Below are positions 28,673 through 41,278 of a stretch of 64,000 bases of DNA, piece after piece; the first letter of the stretch is position 1, and every line of letters begins with the position of its first letter. The DNA is from Tabrizicola thermarum (lineage in GTDB: Bacteria; Pseudomonadota; Alphaproteobacteria; Rhodobacterales; Rhodobacteraceae), in assembly GCF_003574395.1 (NCBI RefSeq), contig NZ_KZ984537.1, positions 67,665 to 131,664 of the forward strand. The letters run 5' to 3'. The notes under the pieces are model-generated. The model ran no database searches, was not told the origin of the DNA, and was given only the letters and a program-made list of their open reading frames with translations. The position numbers were made by a program, and so were the translations under genes.

Positions 28673-30862
28673 CTAGGCTGCGGCTCTTTCGCCGCCGAAG
28701 CGGCCGTAGAAGGTCTGACCCGTCTCGGCCATCTCGCGCAGCAGCGCCGGAGCGTGGAAGCGCGGCCCGAACTGGGCGGTCAGGCCGCGGCAGATCTCTA
28801 CGGCCCGCCCCGCTCCGATCATGTCCAGCCACGAGAACGGTCCGCCCGACCAGGGCGCAAAGCCCCAGCCGAGGATCGCGCCCACATCGCCCTCACGGAT
28901 GTCGGTCAGGACGCCGTCCTCCAGCGCCCGCACCGCCTCCAGCACCTGGGCGAACAGAAGCCGATGCTGCACGTCCGCCAGCGAGGGCTGCATCTTGTCC
29001 AGCGGATACTTGCGCGCAAGGCCCTCCCACAGACCCAGCCGCTCGCCCTTGTCGGAATAGGCGTAGAACCCGGCATTGGCCTTCCTGCCCAGCCGGCCCT
29101 GGTCGGCCATCCAGAACAGCACATGGTCCACCGCCTCGTCCGGGTAGTCCTTGCCCATCGCGGCCTTGGTCGCCTTGGCGATCTTCACGCCAAGGTCGAT
29201 CGAGGTCTCGTCCACCAGTTGCAGCGGGCCCAGCGGCATCCCCACCAGCTTTGCCGCATTCTCGATCAGCGCCGGTTCCACACCTTCGGCCACCATGCGG
29301 ATGCCTTCGTTGATGTAGGGGATGATGCAGCGGTTGGCGTAGAAGAACCGCGCGTCGTTGACGACGATGGGGGTCTTGCGGATCTGGCGGACGAAATCCA
29401 GCGCCTTGGCTACGGCGCGCTCGCCGGTCGCCTTGCCGCGGATGATCTCGACCAGGTTCATCTTGTCCACCGGGCTAAAGAAGTGGATGCCGATGAACTG
29501 TTCCGGGCGCGCGCTGGCCTTCGCAAGGCCGGTGATCGGCAGGGTCGAGGTGTTGGTGGCGTAGATGCACTCCGGTCCCACCGCGGCCTCGACCTTCGCT
29601 GTCACCTCGGCCTTGACCTTCGGGTCCTCGAAGACCGCTTCCACGACCAGATCGGCACCTGCCAGCGCGGCGTAATCGGTGGTGGCGGTGATCCGGCCCA
29701 GCACTTCGGCCTTCTTCTCTGCTGTAACCTTGCCGCGCTTCATGCCCTTGTCCAGCAGCCCCTCGGAATGCGCGCGGCCCCGATCCGCCGCCTCTTGCGT
29801 GGCGTCGATCAGGACGACCTCGATCCCGGCATTGGCACTGACATAGGCGATCCCTGCGCCCATCATGCCCGCCCCGATCACGCCCAGCTTCTTCACGGAC
29901 TGATCCGCGACCTTCGGCCGGTTCGCGCCCTTCTCCAGCGCCTCCTTGTTGATGAACAGGCTGCGGATCATCGCCGAGGAGGAGGGGTTCATCAGCACGG
30001 ATGTGAAATGCCGCGCTTCGATCTTCAGGGCGGTGTCGAAGGGCACCAGCGCACCCTCATAGACCGCCGCCAACAAGGCCTTGGCCGCCGGATAGACGCC
30101 CATCGTCTTGGCGTGGACCATGGCAGAAGCTCCGACAAAGGTCTGGAACCCCGCCGGGTGATAGGGCGCGCCGCCGGGCATCTTGTAGCCCTTGGCGTCC
30201 CAGGGTTTCACAAGGTCGGCATCCGTGGCCGAGAGCACCCATTCCTTTGCCCGCGCCAGCAGGTCCTCGGGCGCCACGACCTCGTCGATCAGACCCGCGC
30301 CCTTGGCCTCTTTCGGCGAGACGAGCTTGCCCTCCAGCAGGAAGGGGGCCGCCATCATCGCGCCCAGCTTGCGCGACAGCCGGGTGGTGCCGCCCGCGCC
30401 GGGGAAGATGCCGACCATGATCTCGGGCAGGCCGATCTTTGCCTTGGGGTTGTCAGCCGCGATGATGCGGTGGCAGGCGAGCGGCAGTTCCAGCCCGATC
30501 CCCAGCGCCGTGCCGGGCAGAGCCGCGACGATGGGCTTGCCGCCTTTCAATGTCTTCGGGTCCATCCCCGCGCGTTCGATCTTGCGCAGGACCTGGTGCA
30601 TCTGCATCACGCCGTCAAAGATCGCCTGCGCGCCCCCGGCCCGCATCCGGGCGATGACGTTCAGGTCCATCCCCCCGGCAAAATCCTTCTTTCCGCTGGT
30701 GAGGATGATCCCCTTGATGCCTGCATCGGCCAGAGCCTTGTCGATCAGGTCGGACAGAAGACCGAAAGCCTCGGTCGACATCACGTTCATCGACTTGGAT
30801 TTGACATCCCAGGTGATCGTGGCGACGCCCTCGGCGTCTGTGGTCATGGTGAAGTCGGTCAT
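28673..30862 (-). CDS. fadB: Multifunctional fatty-acid oxidation protein (enoyl-CoA hydratase / 3-hydroxyacyl-CoA dehydrogenase, FadB-like)
   Basis: 729 residues. The N-terminal crotonase domain (about 1-190) has the oxyanion-hole segments KDFAGGMDLN and ALPGTALGIGLELPLAC. The 3-hydroxyacyl-CoA dehydrogenase part starts near residue 325 with the NAD-binding KLGVIGAGMMGAGIA, then IGIHFFSPVDKMNLVEI and the NRCIIPYINEG segment, and ends with GWGFAPWSGGPFSWLD. It carries out the hydration and second oxidation steps of beta-oxidation. The ATG overlaps the stop of the dicupin gene by 4 bp, tying it to the cupin block. The thiolase partner is 2.5 kb upstream. Confidence 0.93.
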   Translation of the reverse strand: MTDFTMTTDAEGVATITWDVKSKSMNVMSTEAFGLLSDLIDKALADAGIKGIILTSGKKDFAGGMDLNVIARMRAGGAQAIFDGVMQMHQVLRKIERAGMDPKTLKGGKPIVAALPGTALGIGLELPLACHRIIAADNPKAKIGLPEIMVGIFPGAGGTTRLSRKLGAMMAAPFLLEGKLVSPKEAKGAGLIDEVVAPEDLLARAKEWVLSATDADLVKPWDAKGYKMPGGAPYHPAGFQTFVGASAMVHAKTMGVYPAAKALLAAVYEGALVPFDTALKIEARHFTSVLMNPSSSAMIRSLFINKEALEKGANRPKVADQSVKKLGVIGAGMMGAGIAYVSANAGIEVVLIDATQEAADRGRAHSEGLLDKGMKRGKVTAEKKAEVLGRITATTDYAALAGADLVVEAVFEDPKVKAEVTAKVEAAVGPECIYATNTSTLPITGLAKASARPEQFIGIHFFSPVDKMNLVEIIRGKATGERAVAKALDFVRQIRKTPIVVNDARFFYANRCIIPYINEGIRMVAEGVEPALIENAAKLVGMPLGPLQLVDETSIDLGVKIAKATKAAMGKDYPDEAVDHVLFWMADQGRLGRKANAGFYAYSDKGERLGLWEGLARKYPLDKMQPSLADVQHRLLFAQVLEAVRALEDGVLTDIREGDVGAILGWGFAPWSGGPFSWLDMIGAGRAVEICRGLTAQFGPRFHAPALLREMAETGQTFYGRFGGERAAA

Positions 30863-31827
30863 GGTGCTCTCCTGACAGGATATTCAGTGCCGTCACGCCG
30901 CAGGTAGCGCCTGGTAGCGCCGTCCTTGTGGGTGACAAGATCGTGGTCTGTGTAGTGGACAACATCGCGCTGCAGCCGCGTGCCAATCACCAGATACCGC
31001 ACTCGGCTGTCCGAGCGGTTGTCGATCCGGTGGCCGATGGGAAGGTTTGCAGGCCAGCACAGCGTATCGCCGGGGCCGATGGAGGTCTCGCGATCCTCGA
31101 CCAGAACGGCCTGGCCTTCCAGCATGTAGACCATCTCATCCTCGGCCTCGTGCCAATGACGGTGACCGGAGCTTGAGCCAGGGGGAAGCTCTTCCAGGAA
31201 CGCGCCGAACTGGGTCAGACCGCCTGGGTCAGAGAGCAGGCAATAGCCATAGGGGCCGGGGCCCGGGCCGGTGATCGGGTGGGTCGGGTTGTCGGTGGCC
31301 CAGGCGCTCTCGCTGGCGCGCAGGACGTTGGGACGCGGGGAGCCGGCAAAGGCGGTTCCCCAGGGCTTGGGAAGGTTGAGCAGCTCGGCAGGCAGGTCGC
31401 CGGATTTCAGGACCGCGCCATCCGCCGCCTCGATCCGCCATGTGGTCGCTTCGTTGATCTGTCGGCGGCCGTCGTCGGGATAGGTGCAGATGTCGCCCTT
31501 GCACCGCGACCCGACGATCAGCCAGACCGCGGGCACGTCGCCCCGGTTCGTCAGGTGATGGCCGTTCGGATCGCCATGCCGCCAGGCGCAGGAATCGCCG
31601 GGGAAAAGGTCGCGCATCCCGTGGTCGTCGTGCAGGGTTGCCGTCCCGGAAAGGAGATAGAGGAATTCGTCCTCGGCCGAATGCCAGTGCCGCTGGCTGG
31701 ACCAGACCCCGGGAGCAAGCGTCTCAAGATAGGCCCCGAACTGGGTCAACCGGCCCGCGACCGACAGGCGCAGGCTGCGCAGACCGTGTTCGCCGCTGAT
31801 CGGTGCAAGGGCGGGGTCGACAATCAT
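30859..31827 (-). CDS. Dicupin protein, unknown function
   Basis: 322 residues with two cupin domains. Domain 1 (about 25-115): LTQFGAYLETL, the metal-site RHWHSAEDEF and GHHLTNRG. Domain 2 (about 205-290): LTQFGAFLEEL, RHWHEAEDEM and GHRIDNRS. Each keeps the 2-His-Glu and final His ligands, so both could bind a metal. After each cupin comes a tail with a D-x-x-x-Y/W pattern (TYPDDGRR and HYTDHDL). Substrate unknown. Last of four NTF2/cupin genes; its ATG overlaps the NTF2-like gene ahead by 4 bp and its stop overlaps fadB by 4 bp. Confidence 0.85.
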   Translation of the reverse strand: MIVDPALAPISGEHGLRSLRLSVAGRLTQFGAYLETLAPGVWSSQRHWHSAEDEFLYLLSGTATLHDDHGMRDLFPGDSCAWRHGDPNGHHLTNRGDVPAVWLIVGSRCKGDICTYPDDGRRQINEATTWRIEAADGAVLKSGDLPAELLNLPKPWGTAFAGSPRPNVLRASESAWATDNPTHPITGPGPGPYGYCLLSDPGGLTQFGAFLEELPPGSSSGHRHWHEAEDEMVYMLEGQAVLVEDRETSIGPGDTLCWPANLPIGHRIDNRSDSRVRYLVIGTRLQRDVVHYTDHDLVTHKDGATRRYLRRDGTEYPVRRAP

Positions 31828-32285
31828 TGCGCGACCCGCAGCGGAAGCCCGCGTTCGACATGGCCAAAGAGATCCGCGTCCGTCATCGGCCAGTGCCCCG
31901 CTGTCACGGCGGGATACTGCGCCTCGGAAAACAGCCAGTCTTCTCCGCGACGGACCAGAGTGTGGCTGGAGCTGTGCGGATAGGCAATCGGTGCGCCGTC
32001 GATCAGCATATGGGTATGGTGCCAGCCCTCGATCCGGTCGCGGGAGACATAATCGGCTGCCCGTGCGACCCGTTCGTAATGCGTCACCCCTCGCGCCTTC
32101 AGGCCCTGCGACAGCGCGTCGAAGGTCGGACGCAATTCGGCGCGGGTCGACACCAGGAGATCGGCCGTTGCGGTGTGCACCAGATAGGGCAGGTCGATCA
32201 TCGCGGCATAGCGGTCGAAATCGCCCGTCAGAACGGCGTCAGACACCACATTCAAGGCAGTCTGGTAGATCGTCAGCGGGTTCAT
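31824..32285 (-). CDS. NTF2-like (SnoaL-type) protein b
   Basis: 153 residues from the ATG at 32285. The pattern of a small cone-shaped NTF2-like alpha+beta fold is recognisable: an N-terminal helix pair (NVVSDAVLTGDFDRYAAMIDLPYLVHTATADLLVSTRAEL), then strands in YVSRDRIEGWHHTHMLIDG and SHTLVRRGEDWLFSEAQYP. It has no lipid-anchor or signal. Proteins of this fold are enzymes or ligand binders; the role here is unknown. Overlaps cupin 1 by 4 bp at its start and the dicupin by 4 bp at its stop. Resembles the other NTF2-like gene of the block only in fold. Confidence 0.7.
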   Translation of the reverse strand: MNPLTIYQTALNVVSDAVLTGDFDRYAAMIDLPYLVHTATADLLVSTRAELRPTFDALSQGLKARGVTHYERVARAADYVSRDRIEGWHHTHMLIDGAPIAYPHSSSHTLVRRGEDWLFSEAQYPAVTAGHWPMTDADLFGHVERGLPLRVAQ

Positions 32286-32752
32286 CGCGGCCCCGTCCAG
32301 TCGCTGCCGTCCTTGTAGGTGAACCGGGCCTTTCCGCCCTCGATCTCGACCCGCAGGTCCACATCCGAATAGGTCGCCACCTCGCGCGGGGCCTTGGTGC
32401 CCACAACCAGGAACCGCGCGACCTTGTCGCTGCGGTTGATGAAATGGTGCCCGTCGGTGGACCCGGCCGGAAAGGCCGCACAATCGCCCGGCCGCATCAC
32501 GGTTTCGCCCGCGTCCTGGACCAGGGTGCATTCGCCCTCGGTCACCATCACGAACTCGTCTTCGTTCAGGTGCCAGTGCCGCAAGGACGACAGCGCCCCG
32601 GGTTCCAGGGTTACCAGGTTCACCCCGAACTGGGTCAGCCCCCCGGCATCGCCCAGCCGGAGCGATGACCGGCCCTTCATCATGCTGGCGTAGGGTTCGG
32701 GATAGATCGAACCGGTTTTCACCGGCACTTTGGCAGGATCAATCACGGGCAT
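32282..32752 (-). CDS. Cupin-domain protein, unknown function
   Basis: 156 residues, one cupin: GLTQFGVNLVTLEPGALSS, RHWHLNEDEF (two His and Glu ligands), GHHFINRS (last His), then a tail ATYSDVDLRVEIEGGKARFTYKDG. The cupin and tail are close to both halves of the dicupin encoded downstream, so the three arose from one ancestor. No transmembrane or export signal. The stop overlaps the ATG of NTF2-like gene b by 4 bp; the gap to NTF2-like gene a ahead is 48 bp. Confidence 0.85.
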   Translation of the reverse strand: MPVIDPAKVPVKTGSIYPEPYASMMKGRSSLRLGDAGGLTQFGVNLVTLEPGALSSLRHWHLNEDEFVMVTEGECTLVQDAGETVMRPGDCAAFPAGSTDGHHFINRSDKVARFLVVGTKAPREVATYSDVDLRVEIEGGKARFTYKDGSDWTGPR

Positions 32753-32800
32753 CGGGTCCTCCGTCCGGTTGGGCTGCGCCCCGCCGGGGACGTCCCGGCG

Positions 32801-33229
32801 TCAGGCGGACATGGCAAGCGCCGCGAACTGCTGATCGAGTTCCGGCATCGACATCAGCGTGTAGTCTACCATCTCGGCCCGCGGGCCGAGACTGGTCTGG
32901 CGGCAATAGTAGATCACCGAGGATTTGCGGGTCTCTTCGACCGGATAGGCCAGTTCGTGCCAGTCGATCCAGACCCGGAAACGACCGCCGCGCGGCAGTT
33001 CGACTGCGTTCACCTGCGGGCGCAGCGACACCACGCCCCGCTCCAGCAGCGCGGTTCGCAGAAAGTCGAAGACCAGATAGGCGTCGAACGGCGTGTTCAG
33101 CACCATGCACCGTGATTGCAGGTAGATCGGCAAGGGATAGATGTACGAGGCAACCAGTTCCTCGATCTGCCCGCTCAGCAGCAGCTCTCCGCGAGAGCGC
33201 AGCTGAGCGGTCAGTTCCGAATACTCCAT
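32801..33229 (-). CDS. NTF2-like protein a, unknown function
   Basis: 142 residues from the ATG at 33229, where AAGGGA is 7 bp upstream; an in-frame GTG at 33262 is a less likely start. An NTF2-like/SnoaL fold is suggested by its length, the helix-rich start (LTAQLRSRGELLLSGQIEELVASYIYPLPIYL), the repeated strand pattern (VNAVELPRGGRFRVWIDWHELAYPV) and the C-terminal VDYTLMSM strand. No catalytic residues could be named. First gene of the NTF2-cupin-NTF2-dicupin-fadB run; a 156-bp gap to the thiolase gene ahead could hold a promoter. Confidence 0.65.
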   Translation of the reverse strand: MEYSELTAQLRSRGELLLSGQIEELVASYIYPLPIYLQSRCMVLNTPFDAYLVFDFLRTALLERGVVSLRPQVNAVELPRGGRFRVWIDWHELAYPVEETRKSSVIYYCRQTSLGPRAEMVDYTLMSMPELDQQFAALAMSA

Positions 33230-33385
33230 CGAAGGTCCCTTCTGGAAAATGCGAAGAAGCACTCATCATGGGAGAATCACCTCTGCCGCGGCGTAGGTTG
33301 GCGACAGGCGACGGGCCGAAAGCGACATCAACGCAGCATCGCATTATCTGCATTCCGGCACCGTAACCCCTTTCGCCCATGGCGC

Positions 33386-34597
33386 TCAGACTCTCTCGAT
33401 GATCGTGGCTGCGCCCATTCCGCTTGCGATGCACAAGGTGGCAAGGCCAATCGCCTTGTCCTGCCGCTCCAGCTCATCCAGGAGGGTGCCGATGATGATG
33501 GCCCCGGTCGCCCCCAGCGGGTGCCCCATGGCGATCGAGCCACCGTTGACGTTGACCAGTGCCGGATCGACGTCGAAGGCCTGCTGAAAGCGCAAAACCA
33601 CGGATGCGAAGGCCTCGTTCACCTCGAACAGGTCGATATCGCCGATCTGCAGGCCGGAGTCCTTCAGGATCTTCTGCGTCGCCGGAACCGGGCCGGTCAG
33701 CATGATCGTGGGATCGGTGCCGACCTTCGCCGTGGCGCGGATGCGGGCGCGCGGCTTCAGCCCATGCGCGCGGCCGAACTCGGCGCTGCCGATCAGGACG
33801 GCCGCCGCCCCGTCCACGATGCCGCTGGAGTTGCCCGCGTGGTGGATGTGGTTGATCTTCTCGAGGTGCGGATACTTCATGATCGCGACCTTGTCGAAGC
33901 CGGGCATCACCTCGCCCATCTCCTTGAAGGCCGGTTTCAGCGCGCCAAGCGCCTGCATGTCGGTGCCGGGGCGCATGTATTCGTCGCGGTCCAGGATGGT
34001 CAGCCCGTTCTGATCCTTGATCGTCAGGACGGATTTCGCGAACCGTCCTTCCTCCCACGCCCGCGCCGCGCGGCGCTGCGATTCCACCGCCAGGGCGTCG
34101 GCCTGGTCGCGGGTAAAGCCGAATTCGGTGGCGATGATGTCGGCGCTGATGCCCTGAGGGACAAAGTAGGTCTTCATGGCCAGCGTCGGATCGACGGCAA
34201 TCGCCGCCCCGTCCGAGCCCATGGGGACGCGCCCCATCATCTCGACCCCGCCGGCGATATAGGCATGACCCGCCCCGCCCTTCACCTGGTTCGCCGCCAG
34301 GTTCACCGCCTCCATCCCGCTGGCGCAGAAGCGGTTGATCGCCAGGCCCGGGATGCGCTCGTCCAGATCCGAGGCCAGCACCGCCGACCGTGCGAGGCAG
34401 CCGCCCTGTTCGCCGACCTGGGTGACGTTGCCCCAGATCACGTCCTCGACGGCGTGGCCTTCCAGCCCGTTCCGCTCCTTCACTGCGTTCAGCACCTTGG
34501 CCGACAGCGCGACCGAGGTCAGTTCGTGCAAGCTGCCGTCGGGGCGGCCCTTGCCGCGGGGGCTGCGGACGGCGTCGTAGATGAAGGCATCGGTCAT
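33386..34597 (-). CDS. fadA: Acetyl-CoA C-acyltransferase (3-ketoacyl-CoA thiolase)
   Basis: 403 residues. Thiolase with the acylated cysteine at C91 in NRFCASGMEA, and the general-base pair in MGHPLGATGA and LCIASGMGAA near the C-terminus. It cleaves 3-ketoacyl-CoA to acetyl-CoA. GST and acyl-CoA dehydrogenase genes precede it on the same strand (9 bp and about 700 bp), and the MerR gene starts the set. The fadB partner lies behind the cupin block. Confidence 0.93.
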   Translation of the reverse strand: MTDAFIYDAVRSPRGKGRPDGSLHELTSVALSAKVLNAVKERNGLEGHAVEDVIWGNVTQVGEQGGCLARSAVLASDLDERIPGLAINRFCASGMEAVNLAANQVKGGAGHAYIAGGVEMMGRVPMGSDGAAIAVDPTLAMKTYFVPQGISADIIATEFGFTRDQADALAVESQRRAARAWEEGRFAKSVLTIKDQNGLTILDRDEYMRPGTDMQALGALKPAFKEMGEVMPGFDKVAIMKYPHLEKINHIHHAGNSSGIVDGAAAVLIGSAEFGRAHGLKPRARIRATAKVGTDPTIMLTGPVPATQKILKDSGLQIGDIDLFEVNEAFASVVLRFQQAFDVDPALVNVNGGSIAMGHPLGATGAIIIGTLLDELERQDKAIGLATLCIASGMGAATIIERV

Positions 34598-34606
34598 GGT
34601 GGTCTC

Positions 34607-35230
34607 CTATGCGGGGAAGGCCCGCGTCAGCAGGTCGTAGGGGTGTTTCCAGCCGGGCAGCGCACTGATGCGGTCCAGCCAGCGGTCGATGTGCGGCCAG
34701 TCCTTGCGGTCAAAGCCGAAGGGCTCGGGGTAATAGAGGTAGCCGCAGGCCGACAGGTCGGCGATGGTGACGGCGTCTCCGGCGATCCAGGTGCGGTTGT
34801 CAAGGTGGTCGTTCAGCACCGTATAGGCGGCCTTGAGGCGGCCTTGCAGGAAGGGGATCACCGCCTCGGGTCGCTTTTCGGGAGGCAGGAAGTTCATCAG
34901 GAAGCGCGTGGTGCCGATCTGGGTCGAAAGCTTGTGGTTGTCCCAGAACAGCCAGCGCAGCACCTCGCGCCGTTCGGCGGCAGACCGCCCGCCCAGCTTG
35001 CCGGTCTTGGAGGAGATGTAGTCAAGGATCACCCCCGACTGGGTCAGCGTCAGGTCGCCGTCGATCAGCACCGGGACCTCGCCCATCTCGTTGATCGCCT
35101 TGAACTCCGGGCTGCGCGCTTCACCCTTGAAGAAGTCGACGAAGATCGGCTCCCACTCAAGGTCGGCCATCTCCAGCGCGAGGGCGCATTTGTAGGCGTT
35201 GCCGCTTTCGCCGAAGGAATAGAGCTTCAT
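34607..35230 (-). CDS. Glutathione S-transferase family protein
   Basis: 207 residues from the ATG at 35230 (MKLYSFGESGNAYKCALALEM), where the thioredoxin-like N-terminal domain begins. It has the cis-Pro motif (EVPVLIDGD) followed by LTQSGVILDYI, and the all-helical C-terminal domain with AGDAVTIADLSACGYLYYPE. It has Ser at the position usual for beta/other GSTs (about S8). Probably conjugates or isomerises a thiol-reactive intermediate, or simply protects against one, in this beta-oxidation operon. GGGAGAG upstream. Between fadA and the acyl-CoA dehydrogenase genes. Confidence 0.82.
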   Translation of the reverse strand: MKLYSFGESGNAYKCALALEMADLEWEPIFVDFFKGEARSPEFKAINEMGEVPVLIDGDLTLTQSGVILDYISSKTGKLGGRSAAERREVLRWLFWDNHKLSTQIGTTRFLMNFLPPEKRPEAVIPFLQGRLKAAYTVLNDHLDNRTWIAGDAVTIADLSACGYLYYPEPFGFDRKDWPHIDRWLDRISALPGWKHPYDLLTRAFPA

Positions 35231-35254
35231 CGCCGGTCTCTCCCGTGACAGGTC

Positions 35255-35277
35255 GGGCGGGCCTTGGCGGCCCACCC
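35255..35277. repeat. Degenerate GTAGGGTGGGC-like palindrome, copy C
   Basis: Arms GGGCGGGCC (35255-35263) and GGCCCACCC (35269-35277) pair except at one position and share the CCCACCC half with copies A and B. It sits in the 60-bp gap between two genes on the same strand. Weak match, kept for comparison. Confidence 0.4.
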
Positions 35278-35290
35278 TTCGGGCAAAAGC

Positions 35291-37066
35291 CTAGAACGCC
35301 TCGGCGGCCAGCGCCATCACCGGATCGGCCCCGCTTTCGATGCGGGAAAGATGCATGGAACAGGCGGGCAGCTGGCGGGCCATGTAAAAGCGGCCGGTGG
35401 CGATCTTCGCCTCGTAGAAGTCGCGGTCGGCGGCCCCTGCGTCCAGCGCGTCGTACGCGGCCTTGGCCATCCGGGTCCACATCAGGCCCAGGCAGACATG
35501 GCCCATCATGTGCATGAAGTCATAGGACCCGGCCAGCGCCGCATTGGGGTTCTTCATGCCGTTCTGCATGAAGAACATGCCCGCCTGCTGCAACTGCTTC
35601 GACGCGGTCTTCAAGGCCTCCACGAAGCCCTTCATCCGCTCGTCGCCCTCATGCGCCTTGCACTCGGCCTTCACCATTTCAAAGAAGGCCATCACATGCT
35701 TGCCGCCGTCCTGCGCGAGCTTCCGGCCCACCAGATCCAGCGCCTGGATGCCGTTGGCGCCTTCGTAGATCATGGCGATCCGGGCGTCGCGGGCGAACTG
35801 CGACATGCCCCATTCCTCGATATAGCCATGCCCGCCAAAGACCTGCTGGGCCTGCACTGCCATCTCGAAGCCCTTGTCGGTCTGGAACCCCTTCAGCACC
35901 GGGATCATCAGGCTGACCAGCCCTTCGACCGCGGCGTCGCCCGTGCGGGTATAGCGGTCTATCAGCGTCGCGCCCCAGTAGGTCAGCGCGCGGGCGCCCT
36001 CGATGAAGCTCTTCTGCTCCATCAGGTTGCGGCGGATGTCGGGATGCACGATCAAAGGGTCGGCCGGGCCGTTCGGGTTCTTCGCCCCCGTCACGTCGCG
36101 GCCTTGCAGCCGGTCCTTCGCATAGGCCAGCGCGTTCTGATAGGCGGCCTCGGCCACCGCATAGCCTTGCAGCGCCACGCCCAGCCGCGCCTCGTTCATC
36201 ATCGTGAACATGGCGCGCATGCCCTTGTGGAGTTCACCCAGCAAATACCCCGTCGCCCCGTCGTAGTTCATCACGCAGGTCGCGTTGCCGTGGATGCCCA
36301 TCTTGTGCTCGACCTTGCCCACGGACACCGCGTTCCGGTCGCCCAGCGAGCCATCCTCGTTCACCAGAAACTTCGGCACGATGAAAAGGCTGATCCCCTT
36401 CGTCCCCTCGCCGCCGCCCGGGGCCTTGGCCAGCACCAGATGAACGATGTTCTCGGCCATGTCGTGATCCCCGGCCGAGATGAAGATCTTCTGCCCGGTG
36501 ATCTTGTAGGACCCGTCCGCCTGCGGCTCGGCCCTGGTGCGCAACAGGCCAAGGTCGGTCCCGCAATGCGGCTCGGTCAGGTTCATCGTGCCGGTCCATT
36601 CGCAGGTCACAAGCTTCGGCAGCCATTTCGCCTTCTGTTCCTCGGTCCCGTGGACCAGGATCGCCGAATAGGCGCCATGGGTCAGGCCCTGATACATGTT
36701 GAAGGCCATGTTGGCCGAGACAAACGTCTCGTTCACCGCCGTGTGCATGAGGTAAGGCAGGCCCTGCCCGCCGTATTCGGGGGCCGCGTCCAGCGACATC
36801 CAGCCGCCCTCGCGCAGCGTCTTGAACGCCTCCTTGAAACCCTTGGGGGTGCGGACGATGCCGTTCTCCAGCGCGCAGCCCTCGACATCGCCCACAACGT
36901 TCAGAGGCGTCAGAATGTCCTGGGCCACTTTCGCGGCCTCGTCGAACACAGCCTCGGTGAAGCTTCTGTCCAGATCGGCGTAGCCGGGAATATCGGCTTC
37001 GGAGACCTTCAGAACGTCGTGCAGCAGGAACTGCATGTCCTTCACGGGTGCGGTGTAGCTGGGCAT
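35291..37066 (-). CDS. Acyl-CoA dehydrogenase (FadE-like)
   Basis: 591 residues from the ATG at 37066, with GAGGAGAG directly upstream; a longer open frame ahead of it does not match. Flavoprotein that makes the trans-2 double bond in acyl-CoA. Seen: [23 protein letters not shown] and GQKIFISAG (FAD/substrate regions), the [30 protein letters not shown] stretch, and [17 protein letters not shown] with the Glu position of the catalytic base typical of the long C-terminal type. The extra C-terminal domain (about 460-591) is usual for this branch. Located between GST and MerR genes. Confidence 0.9.
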
Positions 37067-37128
37067 TCTTCTCTCCTCTTCCCTGTCATGTGCCGCGCCG
37101 CGGGGGGCGCGGGTCGATCGGTGTCGCG

Positions 37129-37530
37129 TCAGGCGGCCTGCGGTGACGCAAGCCCCTTCGCCTCGGCCTTGGCCAGTTCGGCCTTCAGCTCGGCAATTGC
37201 CACGTCCAGCTCGGCGCGCTGGGCCTCCATCACCCGCAGCCGTTCGCGGGCGATCTCGCAGGCGCGCCGGTTCTGCGCCGTGTTGCCGCTGTCGCGGTCG
37301 TAGAGGTCCAGCGTCTGCCGGATGTCCTCCAGGCTGAAACCGAACCGCTTGCCACGCAGGATCAGCGCCAGTCGAGCCCGGTCGCGCCGGGTGAACAGCC
37401 GCCGTGTCCCGATGCGGATCGGGGTCAGCAATTCCTTGGCCTCGTAGAACCGCAGCGTGCGCGGGGTCACGCCGTAGGCCTCGCACGTCTGCCGGATCGT
37501 CATCACGTCACTTGGAACTTGGGTCGTCAT
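37129..37530 (-). CDS. MerR-family regulator, LiuR/PsrA-type
   Basis: 133 residues from the ATG at 37530; ATGs at 37545 and 37503 are possible. The N-terminal winged HTH ([26 protein letters not shown]) and [28 protein letters not shown] are MerR family. The C-terminal half is a coiled-coil dimer helix ([26 protein letters not shown]) with no Cys pattern of metal sensors, so it likely senses an acyl-CoA or similar. The gene heads the beta-oxidation set, and a TTGACGTTAACGTCA palindrome lies 72 bp upstream. Confidence 0.85.
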
Positions 37531-38806: not shown

Positions 38807-38896
38807 CGGGGTTCTCCTCTGACCGTCCCGAAGGTGGGACGCGTGGCTGTTAGCCTATGGGTCGCGCGGGGGGAAGCGGATTCGACGGGGTCGGCC

Positions 38897-40066
38897 TCAG
38901 TCGGTCCGGTCCTGTGACAGCAGGTAGACGGCCAGACCCACGGCGGTGGTGATCGCAAAGAACAGGAACACCGCCTGATACGGCGCGGCGGGTGGCACGG
39001 GCGCGGTCGCGGCGTGGATGCGGCCGGTCAGGATCTGGGCGATGCCGATGGGCGCAATGCCGAAAAGGTTCAGCAGCGTCACGCCCCGTCCCATGAGATG
39101 CGGTGGGAAGAACGCCCGGCCATGGGCGATGACCATCGGAAAACTCGCCCCGAAGAACCCGGCCGCCACCAGAAGCGCCGTCGCCACCCAGGGCGCTGCG
39201 GCGGCGAACCACCAAAGACCCGCAAGACAGGCCAGCGTCACCGCATTGCCGCCGAAGATCACCCATTTCCGGGTGCCAAGCCAGCGGTCCAGCGGGCCGT
39301 AGGCGAAGTTGCCCGCCACCATCGCCAGCCCGATCCAGAGACCGACCCGCCCGATCTCCAGCGGGTCCGCCCCATGCACATCCGCGAAATACGGTCCCAC
39401 CCACAACCCGCGCAGCCCGGCGATCGGGGTGTAGCAGACCACCATCATCGCCAGGATCGGCCAGATCGCCGGGATGCGCAACAGGTCCAGAAGCGAGCCA
39501 TCCCGCGCCGTCTCCAGCCGTTCGGGATCGCGCACGAGGATCAGGATCGCCAGAGCCACCGCCCCGGTGATCGCCGCCAGCCCCAGCACCGTCTCGCGCC
39601 AGCCGAAGGCCTCGACTGCCGCCGACAGGGGCAGCGAGGAGGCCACGTTGCCCAGCGAGCCCACGCCGATGGTGATCCCGGCCAACGTGCCGAAGACCGC
39701 AGGCGAAAACTGGCGGGCGAAGATGAAGTAGCTGGCCATCAGCACCGGCGCGCAGCCGATGCCGATCAGCGCCATCGCCAGCTTGATCTGGAACGCCCCG
39801 GTCGCCTGCGCGAACAGAAGCGCTCCGCCGGCCCCGACGGCCAGCAGGACGCCCGAGGTCAGCCGCGGTCCGATCCGGTCGAGGCTTGACCCGATGGGGA
39901 CCTGCATCGCGGCAAAGGCCAGAAACCACCAGCCCGAGGCCGAGGCGAGGTCGGCCGCCGTCAGGCCCAGGTCGGCTTTCAGCACGGGCGTCAGCACCGC
40001 GAGGAAAGCGCGGTAGAACTGGCTCAGGACATAGGCAAGGATCAGGGCGGCAATGCCGACGCGCAT
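38897..40066 (-). CDS. MFS transporter
   Basis: 389 residues from the ATG at 40066. Twelve hydrophobic helices of a major facilitator: the first MRVGIAALILAYVLSQFYRAFLAVLTPVLKADL, the motif-A-like PIGSSLDRIGPRLTSGVLLAV loop between helices 2 and 3, and a long cytoplasmic middle loop. It belongs to a general sugar/organic-acid/drug branch I cannot narrow further. Divergent from the DUF4424 gene. AAAGG precedes the start. Confidence 0.85.
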   Translation of the reverse strand: MRVGIAALILAYVLSQFYRAFLAVLTPVLKADLGLTAADLASASGWWFLAFAAMQVPIGSSLDRIGPRLTSGVLLAVGAGGALLFAQATGAFQIKLAMALIGIGCAPVLMASYFIFARQFSPAVFGTLAGITIGVGSLGNVASSLPLSAAVEAFGWRETVLGLAAITGAVALAILILVRDPERLETARDGSLLDLLRIPAIWPILAMMVVCYTPIAGLRGLWVGPYFADVHGADPLEIGRVGLWIGLAMVAGNFAYGPLDRWLGTRKWVIFGGNAVTLACLAGLWWFAAAAPWVATALLVAAGFFGASFPMVIAHGRAFFPPHLMGRGVTLLNLFGIAPIGIAQILTGRIHAATAPVPPAAPYQAVFLFFAITTAVGLAVYLLSQDRTD

Positions 40067-40231
40067 GGCGGAGCCTTTCGGGAACCGACGCCTTGTCGCA
40101 AGCGCCACGGGCGGGTGCAAGGCCGATTTCTGCGCAGAACCCGGTCGGAAGTTTGCGCAGACTCCCTCTCCGCCCCCTTGCGGTAGCGCGGTCTCGCGCG
40201 TCAGATACCGTCATTCGTCCCGGAGGTTTCG

Positions 40232-41278
40232 ATGCGCCTGACCCTTGTCCCCCTGCTTTTCCTTGCCGCGCCCGCCCTTGCCAACGACGGGTTCGGCGGC
40301 CTCTCCGCCACCGGCCTGACCTTCGACCAGACCGACGCCGTCGCGATGGAGGAAGAGCGGCTGTTCATCTCGATCGACAGGGTCGCCGTCGACTATGTCT
40401 TTCGCAACCTGACCGACCGGGACGTGACCGGCGAGGTCATCTTCCCGCTGCCGCCGGTGGGCGTCTGGTCCGGCTACGAGGCGATGATGAACCTGCCCGA
40501 GGATCTGACGCAGGAGGATCTCGTCGGTTTCACCGCTACGGTGGACGGCAAGCCCGTCAGCGTGGAGATCGACCGCATCGCCGTGGTCGAGGAGGGCTTC
40601 GACGAAGAGAACCCGCCATCCAGGCAATACGACAACCCCGGACGCGACGTGACCGCCGATCTGGAGCGGCTGGGCATCCCGCTGACGCTGGATTACATGG
40701 CGGTGCGCAAGGTGCTGCTGTCGTTGCCCGAGGAGAAGCGCAAGGAAGTCGAGGCGCTTGGTCTGGCCGAATATTACGACGGCGATCCCGCGCAGGATGT
40801 CCCGCCCGATGTCTGGGGGACCTGGGCGATCGTCACCCGCTACCACTGGACGCAGACCTTCCCGGCCGGGAAGACCCTGTCGGTCAGTCACAGCTATACC
40901 AACCGCCCGCCCGGGGGGCTGTTCTACTGGTCCGATCCGCCCGAGGAGTACCAGACCGATCTGGTCAACCAGTACTGCATCGACCCGGGCACTTCGAAAG
41001 CTCTGGCGAAGGCGCTGAAGAACCCTGAAGGCGACGAGTTCGGCCATTACGGCACGGCTTGGAACATCTCTTACGTCCTGCGGACCGCGAACAGCTGGGC
41101 CGGCCCCATCGGCCGCTTCACCCTGACGCTCGACAAGGGCGACCCGAGGAACGTGATCTCGCTCTGCGCCGAAGGGGTCAGGAAGACCGACCCCACCACC
41201 TTTGTCATCGAGAAGAAGGACTACACCCCCGACCGCGATCTCGAGGTGCTGATCGTCCAGCCGATGAACCCGAATTAA
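40232..41278 (+). CDS. DUF4424-family periplasmic protein
   Basis: 348 residues. Signal peptide MRLTLVPLLFLAAPALA, then NDGFGGLSATGLTFDQTDAVAMEEERLFISIDRVAVDYVFRNLT, which is the family's conserved start. A long beta-rich body follows with no catalytic motif that I recognise. Widespread in alphaproteobacteria, function unknown. It stands alone between two minus-strand MFS genes; 9 bp separate its stop from that of the second MFS gene. Confidence 0.85.
   Translation: MRLTLVPLLFLAAPALANDGFGGLSATGLTFDQTDAVAMEEERLFISIDRVAVDYVFRNLTDRDVTGEVIFPLPPVGVWSGYEAMMNLPEDLTQEDLVGFTATVDGKPVSVEIDRIAVVEEGFDEENPPSRQYDNPGRDVTADLERLGIPLTLDYMAVRKVLLSLPEEKRKEVEALGLAEYYDGDPAQDVPPDVWGTWAIVTRYHWTQTFPAGKTLSVSHSYTNRPPGGLFYWSDPPEEYQTDLVNQYCIDPGTSKALAKALKNPEGDEFGHYGTAWNISYVLRTANSWAGPIGRFTLTLDKGDPRNVISLCAEGVRKTDPTTFVIEKKDYTPDRDLEVLIVQPMNPN

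Follow-up and report, generated by a model that had tools for sequence, protein, structure and literature searches.

A modular cupin and NTF2-like slot between the thiolase and fadB genes of the Rhodobacteraceae beta-oxidation operon

Introduction

The cupin and the NTF2-like fold have both been recruited for acid-base chemistry beside a carbonyl group, as in ketosteroid isomerase, SnoaL, the RemF cyclases and the beta-diketone-cleaving cupins. In polyketide clusters, the cyclases RemF (a cupin) and SnoaL (an NTF2-like protein) have unrelated folds and do comparable work on beta-keto thioesters. Here, we analyzed a stretch of 64,000 nucleotides of Tabrizicola thermarum (contig NZ_KZ984537.1, positions 67,665 to 131,664; hereafter the window), in which genes for proteins of these two folds lie between the thiolase gene and fadB of a beta-oxidation operon. 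No description of this arrangement was found in the titles and abstracts of the open-access literature, subscription journals and preprints being outside the search. Comparison of gene order across the Rhodobacteraceae shows that, as read from sequence, the thiolase-fadB junction is a modular accessory slot at a fixed position. Its recognizable content is almost only metallo-cupins and NTF2-like proteins, present as singles, duplicates, fusions or mixtures when the slot is not empty. These modules are renewed faster than the genes on either side and recombine with one another.

Gene Order and Slot Content

Four genes on the minus strand of the window separate the thiolase gene (acetyl-CoA C-acetyltransferase, PRK08242 type; 33386-34597, minus strand; NF006090 678 bits, cut-off 514), which is the upstream border of the slot, from its downstream border fadB (28673-30862, minus strand). 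The latter encodes a fadB/fadJ-type multifunctional beta-oxidation enzyme of 729 amino acids (aa), for which the FadJ model was the top NCBIfam match (5.8e-167), yet under the cut-off of that model. From the thiolase side, the four genes encode NTF2-like protein a of group N2 (P0001, 142 aa, 32801-33229), a single metallo-cupin of group C1 (P0002, 156 aa, 32282-32752), NTF2-like protein b of group N1 (P0003, 153 aa, 31824-32285), and a double cupin, CC (P0004, 322 aa, 30859-31827). A first-pass annotation of the DNA had proposed this order of genes on one strand, and the coordinates as well as the domain and fold evidence given below bear it out. The three 4-bp overlaps on which it based a translational coupling to fadB are exact (cupin/NTF2b, 32282-32285; NTF2b/double cupin, 31824-31827; double cupin/fadB, 30859-30862). 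The NTF2a gene overlaps neither neighbor and lies 48 bp from the cupin gene and 156 bp from the thiolase gene, with an alternative, longer GTG start at 33262. A search of the same genome found this fadB to be its sole full-length copy, and the host operon is therefore the main beta-oxidation operon and not a special one.

We surveyed 149 genomes, one per genus of the family, using N1, CC, N2, and FadB as queries. fadB was present in 147 genera (E 1e-80), and 140 genomes were kept with the 6 kb upstream of fadB, seven having been dropped (fadB incomplete, located at the end of a contig, or not listed). The thiolase gene stood directly upstream of fadB on the same strand in all 140 genera. The gap between them was at most 180 bp, here called an empty slot, in 53 genera and longer in 87, of which 82 carried cupin and/or NTF2-like domains and five neither. 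By content, 34 slots held cupins only, 31 NTF2-like proteins only, 17 both, and five were classed as other, the presence of one fold being independent of the other (Fisher p 0.71, with neither in 53). A chance origin is excluded, as 82 of 140 genera have this gap occupied by these two domain types. The slot profiles matched nothing elsewhere in these 6-kb stretches (E 1e-4). A glutathione S-transferase (GST) gene lay upstream of the thiolase gene in 126 of the 140 loci, and this GST-thiolase junction exceeded 250 bp in 11 of the 126, versus 86 of 140 for the thiolase-fadB junction. As in the window, the last slot module often appears coupled to fadB, whose start overlapped the preceding slot open reading frame (ORF) by exactly 4 bp in 23 of the 82 filled loci; the junction was gapless in 33 of 82.

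The first-pass annotation had treated the four genes as one block that may extend beta-oxidation to an unusual acyl substrate or deal with a side product. The genes are indeed linked to the operon, but they do not behave as a unit across the 140 genera, where modules were gained and lost separately (cupin only in 34, NTF2 only in 31, and mixed in 17). The 82 filled slots presented 16 arrangements, from C, N1, N2, N1-N1, N1-C, and C-C to longer ones such as N1-C-N1, N1-N1-C-N1, and N2-C-N1-C-C, the last being that of the window. Within the genus of the window (32 genomes, 29 slots read, loci of limited length), the 28 slot loci and the window displayed at least 10 arrangements, always with fadB next; the stretch before fadB was partly unrecognized in L090, L102, and L112, and L086 and L094 yielded no N2. 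A conserved four-gene block was therefore rejected. With the genome's only full-length FadB in this operon, a block devoted to a single unusual substrate seems highly improbable.

The five longer gaps with neither domain were those of L151, L185, L244, L246, and L249. The L244 gap measures 213 bp and has no ORF. In L249, a Fic/Doc-family gene is paired with a small ORF, and in L246, additional small ORFs come after a NADAR-domain gene. L185 and L151 harbor ORFs of ~100 aa, the L185 one without a Pfam family, which may be either decayed modules or slot proteins of a third type. Two filled gaps (L191 and L179) also carry an antisense ORF of ~100 aa. No recombinase was seen among the few untyped gap ORFs inspected, recombinases and attachment sites not having been searched systematically.

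The slot families are largely confined to this site. N1-type matches lay inside the thiolase-fadB gap at 44 of 51 places (one undecided), N2-type matches at 10 of 13 (one undecided), and cupins of at least 83 bits at 61 of 76. Among the best 80 cupin relatives in GTDB species, 78 were located between thiolase and fadB (the slot of L352 appears blank in this survey, its cupin not having passed the ORF filter), while the remaining two follow a thiolase gene, with no fadB start found behind the cupin on those contigs. The slot cupins came from genera including Tabrizicola, Gemmobacter, Rhodobacter, Paracoccus, Roseovarius, and Actibacterium; in Rhodobacter capsulatus SP108 (L321), the slot contains one cupin alone. 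These counts contradict the possibility, raised with the first-pass annotation, that the genes occur mostly apart from beta-oxidation.

Outside the family, 42 alphaproteobacterial genomes had fadB and 40 were examined, two partial ones having been dropped. The thiolase-fadB order was present in 38 of the 40, no thiolase gene being found within 5 kb in the other two, and the 38 pairs enclosed a cupin in four cases and an NTF2-like protein in none. In the class search, N1 matches occurred in 4 of 237 genomes outside the family, and cupin relatives were common class-wide (79 of 240 genomes at E 1e-12). One off-slot cupin relative outside the family (L270) has an acyl-CoA-dehydrogenase-like gene on one side and a thiolase-like gene on the other. 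A plasmid search gave 17 records, with all relatives below 60% identity and sparse annotation. The neighbors of off-slot cupins included BI-1 three times, CobO, lactate/malate dehydrogenase, and PNPase twice each, RmuC, and others; a gene for a Bax1-I (BI-1) family membrane protein adjoins the cupins of L408, L410, and L413, and a corrinoid adenosyltransferase gene those of L407 and L421. A common functional theme for these neighbors (20 proteins, plus annotated plasmid regions) was rejected given the mixed families, which also include glycerol genes.

Properties of the Slot Proteins

The two cupin proteins of the window matched Cupin_2 (PF07883) with 67.9 bits for P0002 (6.3e-19) and 106.9 bits for P0004 (two stretches, 4.1e-31), the curated cut-off being 27.2. 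The metal motif RHWH....E together with GHH/GHR was present in P0002 and in both halves of P0004. Across 45 aligned slot cupins, H59, E66, and H102 were invariant and H61 was conserved in at least 90%. Residues 1-154 of P0002 matched the solved structure 3i7d_A with an E value of 2.1e-55, and the RemF structure 3ht1 was a weak match (E 0.04 for P0002 and 0.0012 for P0004). Within the genus of the window, the median ratio of non-synonymous to synonymous substitution rates (dN/dS) was 0.08 for thiolase, 0.12 for fadB, 0.14 for C1, 0.26 for the N-terminal half of CC, 0.35 for N1, and 0.55 for N2, these being rough Nei-Gojobori estimates at high guanine-cytosine (GC) content. Sequences were included above identity floors relative to the window of 75% for C1, 50% for N1, and 55% for the CC N-half, with none for N2, fadB, and thiolase, and C1 appears somewhat over-conserved because of its floor. 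C1 thus seems to be an enzyme subject to ordinary purifying selection, with a constraint about the level of that of fadB.

The NTF2-like modules were recognized mainly by structure prediction. P0001 matched no Pfam family and P0003 reached only 14.4 bits against SnoaL_3 (E 0.048), below the gathering score of 22. Their AlphaFold models had a mean predicted local distance difference test score (pLDDT) of 87.5 (P0003) and 89.5 (P0001), and the top Foldseek matches of both were NTF2/ketosteroid-isomerase folds (best E 6e-8 and 2e-6), with the CaMKII hub among the matches of P0003. These models support an NTF2 fold for P0001 and P0003. A PDB sequence search with P0003 gave no match. The N1 and N2 groups are homologous (hhalign 96.5%, E 8e-10), and some of their members had weak Pfam matches to SnoaL_3, DUF4440, and DUF6841. 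Slot hidden Markov models were built from the slot ORFs, and leave-one-out searches regained every NTF2 member (44 of 44) with E values of at most 1e-3. Against the PHROGs and PADLOC models, all four window proteins returned zero families, and slot genes as phage or defense genes were rejected on this basis.

Module Turnover

When slot states were placed on a thiolase tree, 71 changes were required versus 68.5 ± 2.9 for shuffled labels, hence no detectable signal. A GC label on the same tree required 34 changes versus 47 ± 3 when shuffled, indicating that the tree does carry signal. In pairwise identity, FadE, GST, thiolase, and the FadB N-terminus tracked one another (0.44-0.68, 0/200 permutations), and the cupin (0.09-0.21) and N1 (-0.07 to -0.03) barely followed these flanking genes, if at all. 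In Mantel tests on matched genomes, the values were 0.09 for cupin with thiolase and -0.07 for N1 with thiolase, the corresponding thiolase-FadE values being 0.61 and 0.68. The matched controls agreed, except for the set of 26 C1 genomes, the smallest one, where thiolase and GST were uncorrelated (0.11, 92/500).

The double cupin of the window is an example of exchange between modules. Residues 1 to ~165 of P0004 resemble sister double cupins (identity 0.71-0.83 in 30-residue windows to residue 150, and 0.61 in the next), and those from ~180 to 322 resemble a stand-alone cupin, C2 (0.62-0.93, versus 0.33-0.71 to the sister C-terminal halves). This C2 cupin occupies the same place in sister genomes. 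One row of the comparison (L107c2) was in the wrong frame and aligned mainly N-terminally, which affects mainly the low C2 values there. The identity profile thus shows P0004 to be a chimera formed by recombination of two sister modules.

Such a pattern could arise at a tolerant landing site, where small genes with no set tie to beta-oxidation replace one another by homologous recombination in the conserved flanks, gene transfer agents being one possible vehicle, and ride on fadB transcription. Content without detectable phylogenetic signal and slot genes decoupled from their flanks would be expected there, and the Fic/Doc-family and NADAR-domain genes in the gaps of two genera suggest that unrelated genes can land. 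The first 60 bp of fadB were slightly more alike where cupins were alike (0.19, 7/200), which favors such swapping, but the effect was 0.08 (48/200) over the first 150 bp, and the 3' end of the thiolase gene had no extra likeness (-0.06 and -0.07). The thiolase 5' part, away from the slot, followed a slight trend (0.18, 5/200). Swap tracts reaching the flanks were not seen at the thiolase 3' end, with slight trends only at the fadB start and in the thiolase 5' part. Moreover, a neutral site should gather many kinds of genes, whereas 82 of the 87 longer gaps hold two folds, the NTF2 groups are nearly restricted to the slot, and C1 is constrained about like fadB. We consider a neutral landing site unlikely, though a rival to be taken seriously.

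Proposed Function

Position, coupling, and exclusivity, all read from sequence, tie the modules to thiolase and FadB. Our best guess, which we hold tentatively and a little short of even confidence, is that they are accessory modules, both interchangeable and dispensable, that act on intermediates of beta-oxidation. They would be produced in step with FadB and would act on small molecules common to thiolase and FadB, i.e., 3-hydroxy-, enoyl-, or beta-ketoacyl thioesters or by-products arising from these. A carbonyl compound of this kind would be the substrate of the cupins, acting as metal-dependent enzymes, and the NTF2-like proteins would be pocket proteins with the same or a neighboring job, tuned to the acyl diet of each lineage. 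Under this proposal, the two folds could replace each other and the content could change from genus to genus because either would serve the lineage-tuned job. A core step of beta-oxidation is excluded since the slot is dispensable: it is empty in 53 of the 140 genera, of which five have a strong cupin relative off the slot, so it is not needed for beta-oxidation itself.

Several observations weigh against acyl-modifying accessory modules. It is by position alone that the modules are tied to acyl-CoA, and most of the 53 genera with an empty slot also have no strong off-slot cupin relative (only five do). The 20 neighbor proteins of off-slot cupins belong mostly to unrelated families. Decoupling from the flanks was incomplete, with weak correlations of the cupin with FadE (0.21, 14/500) and GST (0.17, 26/500) and of the C1 subset with GST (0.19, 17/500); N1 identities were near saturation (median 22%), and the turnover argument is limited by a single-gene tree and genus-level sampling. 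The slot is not the only spacious interval either, as FadE-GST exceeded 250 bp in 104 of 121 intervals from the 140 loci (L115-L254), with no cupin or NTF2 there in a search limited to these two kinds. Likewise, filled thiolase-fadB gaps were typed only for cupin and NTF2. Finally, only D22, P33, P103, and W117 reached 90% conservation in 30 N1 proteins, D22 being the sole polar one, and only P32 did so in 14 N2 proteins, with no polar residue. So few conserved polar residues suit binding proteins better than a single enzyme family. Another, smaller N1 set (16 proteins) had T68 invariant and D12 and R72 at 90%, making a shared polar site possible. As a whole, the NTF2-like modules look like fast-evolving pocket or partner proteins.

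These residues bear on another explanation, in which the slot proteins are non-catalytic partners of a thiolase/FadB complex, small barrel-shaped or dimeric proteins attached to FadB or thiolase that tune assembly, stability, or activity, their loose sequences reflecting co-adaptation at an interface. The 4-bp coupling to fadB and the scarcity of conserved polar residues in the NTF2 groups would fit, as would the location of the slot between two genes whose products assemble into a complex in other bacteria and the use of NTF2 folds like the CaMKII hub as oligomerization domains. A scaffold would, however, have no need of the cupin metal site, which is intact under strong constraint, and interface partners should co-vary with their enzymes, whereas the slot genes barely do so with thiolase or the N-terminal 66 residues of FadB. 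In addition, 53 genera have the same enzymes without a slot protein. We regard non-catalytic partners as unlikely, while still taking them seriously.

The modules could also be sensors: an intermediate of beta-oxidation would occupy the pockets of the cupins and NTF2-like proteins, which would then adjust the expression or translation of the operon by feedback. Both folds often bind ligands, the genes lie just upstream of fadB, and their sequences are variable. Yet Pfam and NCBIfam scans matched no DNA- or RNA-binding domain in the four window proteins, and a simple consensus scan of 33000-33500 found no promoter- or terminator-like site. Such a regulatory role appears improbable.

If accessory modules are indeed at work, then beta-oxidation in Rhodobacteraceae might comprise an undescribed accessory layer in which two unrelated folds interchange for one function, with fast domain shuffling, versions that differ even between sister genera, and one group (N1) nearly exclusive to the slot, a broader picture that we offer as doubtful. 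The pathway is a textbook one, yet the main beta-oxidation operon of a large bacterial family holds an unnamed, coupled, and quickly exchanged component. Should the choice of acyl chains depend on the modules, they could serve as markers or tools for the degradation of lipids, oils, and plastic monomers. Two folds that trade places naturally at a single site would also offer a rare opportunity to study non-orthologous replacement, and a crystal structure of a close cupin relative (3i7d) already exists and awaits a function.

Other Genes in the Window

Upstream of the thiolase gene by 9 bp lies a GST-like gene (34607-35275, minus strand; GST_N 1.6e-17), preceded by a FadE-like acyl-CoA dehydrogenase gene (35291-37486, minus strand; Acyl-CoA_dh_C 6.5e-38). 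The latter coordinates are those of the longest ORF, and the real start is probably further downstream, the first dehydrogenase domain beginning at residue 218. Two other minus-strand ORFs, 38850-40214 (454 aa) and 40211-41047 (278 aa), overlap by 4 bp and had no Pfam match at E 0.001.

Comparison With Known Systems

Among the closest known relatives is the protein of 3i7d, which matches P0002 over nearly its full length. It is labeled a 'sugar phosphate isomerase', a label for which our analysis gave no evidence, and it is presumably SPO2919 of Ruegeria pomeroyi DSS-3. In R. pomeroyi, SPO2917 is a GST family protein (PMC4334477). Because this fits the order GST-thiolase-cupin-fadB, the 3i7d protein, if SPO2919 as assumed, is probably the slot cupin of R. 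pomeroyi. The locus tags leave room for one cupin there, unlike the four slot genes of the window. No text on SPO2918-SPO2921 or 3I7D was found in the open-access literature.

Accessory enzymes of beta-oxidation, such as crotonase-fold isomerases and dienoyl-CoA reductases, differ from the slot proteins in domain content, as Pfam and NCBIfam scans found no crotonase or reductase domain in the slot genes of the window. With the SnoaL/ketosteroid-isomerase members of the NTF2 superfamily, both window models share the fold. The window proteins, however, fall below the Pfam cut-offs, no catalytic acid or base appears strictly invariant across the N1 and N2 groups, judged from alignment conservation, and these groups are nearly confined to the fadB slot. 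The RemF/SnoaL clusters combine the same two folds, but the scanned genes of the window operon included no polyketide synthase, the host operon being one of core fatty-acid degradation. Lastly, the slot resembles integron-like and island hot spots in having exchanged content at a fixed site, and differs from them in that almost only two folds occupy it (82 of the 87 longer gaps).

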